Below, one piece after another: positions 6,432 to 8,319 of a stretch of 64,000 bases of DNA. The stretch's first letter is position 1; the number at the start of each line of letters is the position of its first letter. This stretch comes from Shouchella hunanensis (GTDB lineage: Bacteria > Bacillota > Bacilli > Bacillales > Bacillaceae_D): NCBI RefSeq assembly GCF_028735875.1, contig NZ_CP117834.1, positions 2,530,001-2,594,000 of the forward strand, read 5' to 3'. The notes under the pieces are model-generated. The model was not told where the DNA came from. It saw only the letters and a program-made list of their open reading frames with translations, and searched no databases. Made by a program: the position numbers and the translations under genes.

Positions 6432-6460
6432 TTGACAAAGCGTTCTGCCTATGGCATCAT
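6432..6460 (+). promoter_or_regulatory. Probable promoter of the ABC-F transcript
   Basis: TTGACA (6432-6437), a 17-bp spacer and CATCAT (6455-6460). The -35 is perfect and the -10 matches four of six. It would give a leader of about 255 nt before the ABC-F start codon. Confidence 0.5.
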
Positions 6461-6488
6461 TAGAGCCATCTTATAAGGAAGGAAATTG

Positions 6489-6512
6489 GTGCCTAATACA
6501 ATGAAGCAGTAA
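6489..6512 (+). CDS. Candidate leader peptide of the ABC-F attenuator
   Basis: GTG or the adjacent TTG starts a 7-8 codon ORF (MPNTMKQ from the GTG at 6489) that stops at TAA 6510-6512. A strong Shine-Dalgarno, AAGGAAGG, ends six bases before the GTG. It would lie close to the RNA 5' end. Leader peptides of this size are common in antibiotic-sensing attenuators, where a drug-stalled ribosome changes downstream folding. Expression is not proven. Confidence 0.45.
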   Translation: MPNTMKQ

Positions 6513-6690
6513 TCGAATCGATCCAACGTAATGGAATAGTCAATTATTCACTCGAGTGAGAGCTGGATAGTATTTTCATGAACGTTAGAGTAGGATTCGT
6601 CTGTTTTCATAGATTAGGTTAAAAGGAATACGACCGCCACAGGAGCTTGTGGGGTAGTGTCTTTTTGGTGACTAATTTCTTACGGGCGAA

Positions 6691-6721
6691 CTCTCTCTAA
6701 CTGTATTAGAGGGGGTTTTTT
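6691..6721 (+). terminator. Attenuator terminator overlapping the ABC-F ribosome binding site
   Basis: CTCTCTCTAA pairs with TTAGAGGGGG (10 pairs, two of them G-U) around CTGTA, followed by six T that run into the start-codon region. The 3' arm contains the gene's Shine-Dalgarno GAGGGGG, and the ATG at 6724 follows the T-run. Upstream GTTAGAG (6584-6590) is fully complementary to CTCTAAC in the 5' arm and could form an antiterminator. Confidence 0.75.
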
Positions 6722-6723
6722 AT

Positions 6724-8319
6724 ATGCTATTGCTACAAACAACAAAATTAGAAAAACAGTTCGGTGCAAGAGTGATTTTAGATAATGAACCATTATTTAT
6801 TTATAAAGACCAACGCATTGGATTGGTCGGTAAAAATGGTGCTGGAAAGACAACACTGTTGCATGTTCTAGCAGGATATGGTGTAGCTGATTTTGGGCAA
6901 GTGACTCGTTATGAAAAAATGGCCTACATTCCACAGCTTCATGAGCTCTCAGCTCCATTATCAGCGAGAGAAGCAAAGCAATGGCAAGTACCAGCTCATG
7001 TTCATAAAAGTGGTGGAGAACAAACACGAGCAAAAATTGCCCAAGCGCTGGAAGCAAATGCTGCCCTTATACTAGCAGATGAACCGACCAGTCATTTAGA
7101 TATGGAAGGGATGAAGCAGCTTGAACAAGTATTTACCTCATTCTCAGGAGGTATTTTACTTACATCTCACGATAAAACATTTCTTAACAATGTATGTACG
7201 TCTATTTGGGAGATTGAAGATGGAAAAGTGAAAGCATACGAGGGAAACTATGATGCATATCTAGTTCAAAAGCAAAAAGAAATGGACAAAGCGCACAAAG
7301 CCTATCAATCCTATCAACTTGAAAAAGATAGGCTCTTACAAGCGGCAAAACAAGCACAGCGCCGTTCTGATCAGATTAAGAAAGCACCGTCTAGAATGGG
7401 GAATTCTGAAGCACGTTTGCATAAACGTAGCAGCGGTGTTCAGAAAGCAAAAATAAACCGGGCAGCTGAAGCGATGGTAACACGAGCGAATCAACTAGAA
7501 AAAAAAGAAAAGCCAAAAGAAGAAACAAAGATTCAGTTTGACCTAAGTCGCTTTCCTGTTGTTCACAGTAAACAAATGATTCAATTTGAAGCCTTTCAAG
7601 TATGGATAGAGGGACGGCTGCTGAAAGAAGTGAATGGGGTTGTACCGGCAGGTAGTCGTGTTGCCATTATAGGAAAAAATGGGTCAGGGAAATCGACGCT
7701 TTTACAGCAAATCGAGAGTCGACAAATGACAATCGCCAAACCAGCAAAGATAGGTTATTTCTCACAGCATCAACACGATATTTTAGATGAGGAAACGATT
7801 CTTGAAAACGTAGGGAAAAACAGTCCTTATTCAGAAACATTTATTCGAACCGTCTTATCTCGCTTGGCTTTTCAACGAGAGGACGTCTTCAAAAAAGGGA
7901 TTGACTTGAGTGGGGGTGAGCGAGTTCGTACCGCCTTAGCGAAAGTATTTTTAAGTAATGTGAATCTTTGGTTATTAGACGAACCAACAAATTATTTGGA
8001 TCTAACGACAAAAGATTCCCTTAAAGAAGTAATGAACAAATTTCCTGGTACGATCCTGTTTGTTACACATGATCGGACATTAATAAGTGATGTTGCAACT
8101 CACCAGTTATCCTTCGATGATGAATGTGCACAGATTAAGGCAGTTAACCAAGTGGAAGAAGAATTAAAAAAGCCAGACGAGTCTTTATTAACCATTGAGT
8201 TTAAACTATCAGAGCTGTTGTCACGTTTATCAACTGTTACCGATGAGACTGAGAGGAATAAACTAGACCAGCAATTTCAAGAGCTGTTAAAGACAAAACG
8301 GACACTAAAGAATCAATAA
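6724..8319 (+). CDS. ABC-F ribosome-protection ATPase (Vga/VmlR-like antibiotic resistance factor)
   Basis: A 531-residue protein with two ABC ATPase domains and no membrane segments. Domain 1 has Walker A GLVGKNGAGKTT (about 33-44), signature KSGGEQ and Walker B LILADEPTSHLD. A charged, helical linker follows (about 195-260, rich in Lys and Gln). Domain 2 has IIGKNGSGKST, LSGGER and LWLLDEPTNYLD. ABC-F proteins of this size bind the ribosomal E site and displace drugs such as lincosamides, streptogramin A or pleuromutilins. The leader attenuator strongly supports a drug-induced role. The Shine-Dalgarno GAGGGGG lies 8 bases from ATG inside the terminator stem. Drug specificity cannot be read from the sequence. 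A terminator follows. Confidence 0.85.
   Translation: MLLLQTTKLEKQFGARVILDNEPLFIYKDQRIGLVGKNGAGKTTLLHVLAGYGVADFGQVTRYEKMAYIPQLHELSAPLSAREAKQWQVPAHVHKSGGEQTRAKIAQALEANAALILADEPTSHLDMEGMKQLEQVFTSFSGGILLTSHDKTFLNNVCTSIWEIEDGKVKAYEGNYDAYLVQKQKEMDKAHKAYQSYQLEKDRLLQAAKQAQRRSDQIKKAPSRMGNSEARLHKRSSGVQKAKINRAAEAMVTRANQLEKKEKPKEETKIQFDLSRFPVVHSKQMIQFEAFQVWIEGRLLKEVNGVVPAGSRVAIIGKNGSGKSTLLQQIESRQMTIAKPAKIGYFSQHQHDILDEETILENVGKNSPYSETFIRTVLSRLAFQREDVFKKGIDLSGGERVRTALAKVFLSNVNLWLLDEPTNYLDLTTKDSLKEVMNKFPGTILFVTHDRTLISDVATHQLSFDDECAQIKAVNQVEEELKKPDESLLTIEFKLSELLSRLSTVTDETERNKLDQQFQELLKTKRTLKNQ

Follow-up and report, generated by a model that had tools for sequence, protein, structure and literature searches.

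A three-codon reading frame within a predicted ribosome-mediated attenuator ahead of an ABC-F gene of Shouchella hunanensis

The window analysed here is a 64,000-nucleotide (nt) stretch of the Shouchella hunanensis genome (RefSeq assembly GCF_028735875.1, contig NZ_CP117834.1, positions 2,530,001 to 2,594,000), and the element in question is the leader preceding an ABC-F gene within it. This gene (6724–8319; like the leader features of the window described below, on the forward strand) encodes a protein of 531 amino acids that is assigned to the Vga/CplR-like ABC-F ribosome-protection proteins by profile and structure matches. It passes the NCBIfam model ribo_prot_ABC_F (442.1 bits, cut-off 380) and is nearest to the Vga and CplR models, both of which score below cut-off. 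Among solved structures, the best match is a chain of 7nhl (332.2 bits), a lincosamide–streptogramin A resistance protein that we take to be VgaA, followed by 7nhn, the Lmo0919 protein. Since a chain of 8buu, presumably VmlR2, is matched at 210.8 bits, the protein is not simply VmlR2. The counterpart in Shouchella miscanthi AK13 is 99% identical, and a genus search recovered this type of ABC-F in 10 of 13 genomes at 57–100% identity.

The TTGACA promoter that a first-pass annotation of this DNA had placed ahead of the gene is present at 6432–6460 as a sigma-A type pattern match (TTGACA, a 17-nt spacer and CATCAT, with a TG ahead of the second hexamer). As this pattern matches once in the kilobase concerned, with 2.3 matches expected by chance, the site counts only because the orthologous leaders, by eye, keep a similar one. 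Further downstream, a purine-rich Shine–Dalgarno (SD)-like block, AAGGAAGG (6475–6482), which has a purine-block counterpart in relatives, precedes a three-codon open reading frame (ORF) at 6501–6512 that encodes MKQ and constitutes the predicted drug-stall site. The distance from AAGGAAGG to this ATG amounts to 18 nt. The 12 nt of the ORF, ATGAAGCAGTAA, are invariant in all ten Shouchella orthologous leaders. The first-pass annotation had instead described an 8-codon leader ORF with a strong SD, that is, an in-frame extension starting from GTG at 6489 (MPNTMKQ, 6489–6512), which lies 6 nt from AAGGAAGG. The SD is indeed found, but the start is kept in only four of the ten orthologues (L001, L011, L012 and L013) and replaced by GTA in the other six (L014–L019). 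Judged by sequence, the conserved leader ORF is MKQ at 6501–6512 and not the GTG-started reading.

For the leader 6467–6726 a folding energy of −81.7 kcal/mol is predicted (z −4.85), which none of 200 shuffles equals, and its minimum-energy fold represents the repressed state, composed of an anti-antiterminator, the paired upstream ORF (uORF), a middle hairpin and a terminator. In this predicted fold, the 5′ arm of the anti-antiterminator (6514–6536) is followed by a 3′ segment at 6574–6610 that consists of the 3′ arm proper (6574–6599) and a strand paired with the uORF (6601–6610). A box before the uORF (6480–6499) closes the repressed fold around it, with 6480–6490 pairing with 6671–6681 and 6491–6499 with 6612–6619; its counterpart helix in relatives is weaker (73.3% of cells paired). 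The middle hairpin (6620–6667), with TCTTTTT at its 3′ end, takes the position of the pause hairpin SL-2 in the Bacillus subtilis vmlR leader (PMC9226507). An antiterminator is predicted from a 5′ arm at 6584–6604, which overlaps the 3′ arm of the anti-antiterminator and is also backed by arm permutation tests, and a 3′ arm at 6682–6701, which overlaps the 5′ arm of the terminator; when 6575–6700 is folded alone, it adopts this antiterminator (−42.6 kcal/mol, z −4.33). The intrinsic terminator (6688–6721), recognised by a terminator scan and in the predicted fold, comprises a hairpin of 13 pairs (6688–6718) and a T-run (6716–6721); 6684–6726 folds at −14.9 kcal/mol (z −4.35), and three terminator-like sites occur in the kilobase against 0.6 expected. 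The SD of the ABC-F gene, AGAGGGGG (6708–6715), lies within the terminator 3′ arm ahead of the T-run and the ATG at 6724, and is sequestered in the predicted repressed state.

Two elements of the first-pass annotation are thereby recovered, namely the terminator whose 3′ arm is the ribosome binding site of the ABC-F gene, and an upstream GTTAGAG complementary to the terminator 5′ arm, which is found at 6584–6590 and belongs to the longer arm 6584–6604 pairing with 6682–6701. Missed, in contrast, was the anti-antiterminator (6514–6536 with 6574–6599, and the uORF with 6601–6610). Because it surrounds the leader ORF, a stalled ribosome could flip the switch. Hence, an anti-antiterminator, an antiterminator and a terminator that exclude one another are present, as read from predicted folds and arm co-variation rather than from probing.

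For comparison, 85 ABC-F leaders were read, comprising 23 matches of a family search (in 23 of 41 genomes) and 62 further ones from the 69 matches of an order search at E ≤ 1e-100 (in 69 of 397 genomes). Excluded were L002–L008 (other ABC proteins of the same genome), L009 (identical in position to L011), L010, the more remote ABC-Fs L020–L026, and L060 (contig end), instead of which L102 was used. A short ORF stands at the homologous place in 84 of the 85 leaders, with two codons in nine, three in 74 and seven in one; L102 is the only leader without an ATG there. The peptides of these 84 ABC-F leaders, to which the tally was restricted, are MKQ (18), MKY (11), MK (9), MKF (9), MRN (8) and 13 others; vmlR-type loci were left out because an overlapping upstream ATG (MGGR etc.) makes uORF calls ambiguous. 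As the peptides vary among leaders, the position of the uORF is conserved and the peptide is not. The uORF also keeps its place relative to the arms, uORF and arms are conserved across the orthologues, and successive blocks of the window leader can be aligned with those of L014 and L015. The two-codon uORFs (MK; L027–L032, L047, L056 and L057) are possibly among the shortest drug-sensing ORFs, and they make it testable whether two codons are sufficient for drug sensing.

That the functional leader peptide is nevertheless the seven-residue MPNTMKQ appears unlikely. GTG 6489 is spaced better from AAGGAAGG than the ATG, it is retained in the four orthologues mentioned above, and another in-frame upstream start exists in L028–L031, giving MVPRTMK. 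On the other hand, GTA takes its place in six orthologues whereas the ATG-started ORF is invariant, an ORF of two to three codons is present at the ATG in 83 of the 85 leaders, and a long SD–ATG distance is found in relatives too, such as L166, a leader with the vmlR uORF MIN, where AGAAGGG lies 14 nt before the ATG. In B. subtilis vmlR, AGAAGGG as SD and the start codon of MIN have been tested by experiment (PMC9226507).

The arms themselves co-vary. Among 65 non-redundant leaders, 63 have a 3′ arm of the anti-antiterminator that shares at least 12 nt with the 5′ arm of the antiterminator, where dinucleotide shuffling of the middle region would lead one to expect 27.2 (terminators of L001 and L034 placed by hand). 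By eye, two layouts can be distinguished. Class I leaders, including the window and many relatives, use the terminator 3′ arm as SD of the gene and the T-run as spacer to the start codon, whereas in class II leaders (e.g. L033–L036, L082, L085 and L087) a later SD hairpin follows, as does SL-4 in vmlR. The single-hairpin layout has a precedent in cplR (PMC10201436). In 31 class I leaders whose arms were assigned from alignment columns, the arms of a given leader pair better with each other than after permutation among leaders. The z value is −6.6 for the anti-antiterminator, −8.7 for the antiterminator, and none of 5000 permutations does as well in either case; after thinning to 23 leaders, the values are −5.2 and −7.2. 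An earlier permutation test (about 9 to 14 standard deviations; 36 and 63 leaders) was set aside, as its middle arm had been picked by the best pairing with its own partner; since this choice favoured cognate pairs, the test was repeated with fixed arms and controls. Column by column, 85.8% of the cells of the conserved core are paired versus 34–48% when slid. Column-wise pair counts on another alignment (A1) were discarded owing to register shifts.

The switch was further followed by folding transcripts cut before the terminator 3′ arm, with a ribosome mimicked by keeping the RNA single-stranded from 15 nt before the ATG to 16 nt past it. An antiterminator occupancy above 0.5 is reached by 3 of the 36 class I leaders in the free state and by all 36 once the ribosome sits at the ATG. 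With the mask at a site 12 nt upstream, which in the window is the GTG, this holds for 26 leaders, which again speaks for the ATG over MPNTMKQ, and with a site 40 nt downstream for 18. The window itself shows an occupancy of 0.00 when free and of 0.88, 0.80 and 0.89 with the ATG, the GTG or the downstream site masked; that the GTG mask frees its antiterminator counts in favour of the longer peptide. Thus, folding backs the circuit but cannot pick the start codon in the window, because the GTG and downstream masks work too.

From the sequence, its conservation, the co-variation of the arms and the predicted folds, we infer the following course of events. RNA polymerase would initiate near 6467. 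In the absence of drug, a ribosome would translate the MKQ uORF and depart, upon which the anti-antiterminator and then the terminator could form, and the RNA would end at about 6721. In the presence of drug, the ribosome may be trapped at or just past the AUG at 6501, where it would cover the base of the anti-antiterminator. This would free 6584–6604 to pair with 6682–6701, and the resulting antiterminator would take away the terminator 5′ arm, so that transcription could proceed and the SD at 6708–6715 would be exposed.

Taken together, the attenuator does exist at the level of sequence, and the leader most likely acts as a ribosome-mediated attenuator for drugs of the peptidyl-transferase centre (pleuromutilins, lincosamides and streptogramin A), to which we would assign a probability of roughly 0.87. 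The drug class is suggested by the genes found behind related leaders, which encode Lnu(G), Vat, an Lmr(B)-like pump and Vgb-like lyases. With respect to the first-pass annotation, its proposal of ribosome-mediated attenuation, in which one hairpin would block both transcription and translation, is well backed by anatomy, conservation and arm co-variation, but the ORF start on which it relied is not conserved and the anti-antiterminator was absent from it. The Shouchella genome therefore very probably holds an inducible ABC-F resistance gene, the expression of which would be overlooked when the drug is absent.

Several observations weigh against this interpretation. The SD–ATG spacing of 18 nt is long, and the window antiterminator is likewise freed by masking the GTG or the downstream site. 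RNAalifold found no consensus pairs on an alignment of 28 leaders, so that the search model R1 was built on sequence only. Within the core, counting by columns yields modest covariation (3 pairs; 7 cells changed on both sides), and the two control segments of the permutation test gave z values of 0.1 and −3.0, one thus showing some signal. Some genes behind related leaders (Vgb-like, a Tet-like pump and a short-chain dehydrogenase/reductase (SDR) enzyme) do not suit the proposed drugs, Vgb being active on streptogramin B. The covariance model R2, based on 20 class I leaders that share a single uORF register (the window is not one of them) and on a structure entered by hand, gives the window leader a low score (20.2 bits, E 0.071; E-values are rough), even though this is the best match in the 64 kb, and genome scans with R2 at E ≤ 0.001 and stricter filters missed the window's own genome. 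Finally, full-length window RNA at equilibrium keeps the terminator with the ATG masked (0.84 versus 0.97 unmasked; five leaders were folded), and the antiterminator would therefore have to fold first during transcription. This last result would also suit a hairpin that is merely a constitutive terminator or translational block, in which case the upstream complementarity would have no switching role. Such an explanation is nevertheless very improbable, since it leaves unaccounted for that three mutually exclusive arms coevolve across genera and that the place of the uORF relative to them is kept.

Marginally less probable still is nascent-chain sensing by a leader of the macrolide type, such as those of msrD or erm. 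The first-pass annotation had grouped the gene with msr as well as with vmlR and vga, and the ABC-F gene msrD is reportedly controlled by a leader of this type (PMC10314930). Macrolide leader-peptide attenuators (msrD, erm) have a longer leader peptide with a stalling motif, whereas the window uORF has three codons, and uORFs of two to three variable codons provide no conserved nascent chain. The likeness to msr is weaker because so short an ORF presumably leaves little space for nascent-chain sensing, and because the enzymes behind related leaders are, by family name, lincosamide and streptogramin resistances. What favours a macrolide leader is a paralogous ABC-F in the same genome with an RLR-type leader. 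This second ABC-F (L002, G000:C1:2252579-2253976; 35% identity) is preceded by a leader ORF after AGGAGG that differs from the window type. Leader ORFs such as MLPARLRQQTLNKQ and MTAGMRLRNVALNNR occur at L002 and its relatives L020 and L022–L026 (seven of eight loci checked, not L021). ErmDL is an RLR-type peptide. By analogy, the L002-type leader ORF is probably a macrolide sensor. Its RLR-type peptide is resembled by the hflX motif uORFC-6-1 (PMC8632094).

How far the leader family extends was assessed with R2, which at E ≤ 0.001 matches 202 of 397 order genomes and 62 of 398 class genomes (some genomes being shared). The window's link to this family is, as judged by alignment, one that runs through its orthologues L014 and L015; that these two match R2 and the window matches R1 is by construction, as they are part of those models. 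Among 40 order matches fetched, mostly from genomes without an ABC-F in the order search, 36 stand before an ABC-F-like frame and four before a major facilitator superfamily (MFS) pump. One pump is Lmr(B)-like (453.6 bits, cut-off 800); for the other three, the top-scoring models are TIGR00900 and Tap, at scores far short of the cut-offs. In the class, 69 of the 73 matches listed were fetched and read, three places also belonging to the order set (L139/L175, L150/L176 and L155/L178). They precede 50 ABC-F-like frames (phmmer against the window protein, E <1e-8; a few frames are short or split), ten MFS genes similar to L144, one Tet-like MFS gene, three Vat-like genes, one Lnu(G) gene, two Vgb-like lyase genes and one SDR oxidoreductase gene, with one unclear match that is perhaps a decayed ABC-F. 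Lnu(G) passes its NCBIfam cut-off (621.9 versus 525), as do both Vat proteins scanned (338.1 for L193 and 351.0 for L199, cut-off 300; L194 was assigned from its resemblance to L193). For the two lyases, the top-scoring model is Vgb(B), although neither reaches its cut-off (396.0 and 388.7 versus 600). A mini-uORF, a terminator and an arm overlap of at least 14 nt are present in all 22 non-ABC-F leaders checked, counted directly rather than against shuffles and with the check begun at the overlapping upstream ATG in L181 and L219.

The Rfam family RF02452 (ncr1575) scores well on one vmlR-type leader and on the Lnu(G) leader. It passes its gathering score in two of seven loci tried, the vmlR-like L156 (91–292; 155.3 bits) and the Lnu(G) leader L181 (1401–1623; 139.6 bits). 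At E ≤ 0.05 it matches four of eight loci tried (L193 before Vat, L144 before MFS, and L058 and L050 before ABC-F; 37.9–48.4 bits), with no match at this threshold to L170, L034, L074 and L014. Matches to Vat, MFS and ABC-F leaders lend some independent support to homology across gene classes. The window, at 20.6 bits (6542–6722, E 1.1), lies far below the gathering score of 60 and is hence not filed under RF02452. Since this family is typed as a small RNA (Gene; sRNA), a trans-acting RNA might be envisaged for the leaders. Yet this is scarcely credible, as a recognised gene follows on the same strand in 40 of 40 order and 68 of 69 class matches, 107 of these 108 genes are resistance-like by family or similarity (three places being in both sets), and the window terminator includes the SD of its gene. 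From its matches to L156 and L181, ncr1575 rather looks like a cis-acting attenuator.

This distribution suggests that the related leaders form a portable sensor of drugs of the pleuromutilin–lincosamide–streptogramin A type. It is quite probable, if less so than the attenuator reading for the window, that one homologous RNA module senses such drugs across Bacilli instead of independent inventions, and that it has been reused before at least five unrelated resistance classes (ABC-F, MFS, Lnu, Vat and Vgb-like). Genomes with several copies would then hold a cis-encoded regulon, the copy in the window would be a divergent Shouchella version, the placement of the AUG would count and the peptide hardly at all, and ncr1575 would be this very attenuator. 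Several genomes harbour two or three leader copies; in G649 and G490, for example, a Vat-like gene and an ABC-F each have their own copy, and the Shouchella genome G005 has a window-type leader as well as a vmlR-like leader before another ABC-F-like frame. Among the papers listed by a literature search, none had a title or abstract opening that describes such a leader ahead of Vat, Lnu, Vgb or MFS genes, and a single drug sensor shared by many resistance classes was likewise not found there, which is no proof of absence as subscription journals and preprints were outside the scope of the search. The leader model can flag candidate inducible resistance genes without knowledge of the gene, given that 67 of the 69 class matches read stand before ABC-F-like, MFS, Vat, Lnu or Vgb-like genes, and it becomes testable whether very different resistance genes answer one signal.

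Individual loci of this family deserve mention. The Lnu(G), Vat-like and Vgb-like genes lie behind same-family leaders at L181, L193, L194, L199, L221 and L231. At L170, a class I leader is followed, after about 150 nt, by an Lmr(B)-like MFS gene; by eye, the SD of this leader drives a tiny ORF (MLLKKKKKLL), perhaps the remnant of an earlier ABC-F gene. At L236, an SDR oxidoreductase gene follows a full-looking leader; among the recognised genes behind class matches, it alone is no obvious resistance gene.

Among known systems, one of the closest parallels to the window leader is vmlR of B. subtilis, a likeness already named in the first-pass annotation that holds up better than the one to msr. 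The vmlR leader similarly places a mini-uORF inside an anti-antiterminator, followed by an alternative antiterminator, a middle (pause) hairpin, an intrinsic terminator and the ABC-F gene (PMC9226507). It differs in its uORF, MIN instead of MKQ, and in a separate SL-4, where the window combines terminator and SD-sequestering hairpin in one structure; in addition, its NusG pause motif TTNTTT is not matched by the T-run TCTTTTTGG (6660–6668) of the window's middle hairpin (PMC9226507). The cplR leader of Clostridioides difficile shares with the window a three-codon uORF (MRI in cplR) and a terminator stem that sequesters the main SD, and its transcript ends at the main start codon, as proposed here (PMC10201436). 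It stems from another lineage with another uORF, and the likeness is one of description. For VmlR2, a uORF consensus of MK[L/Q] was obtained by uORF4u, which MKQ fits (PMC10201436). A lincomycin-responsive attenuator, rli53, precedes lmo0919 in Listeria monocytogenes and is likened to the window leader through the Lmo0919 protein (PMC11550727). The circuits of vmlR (PMC9226507) and cplR (PMC10201436) are supported by published experiments, and by analogy the mechanism proposed for the window is the one published for these two, of which the Shouchella leader would be another example.

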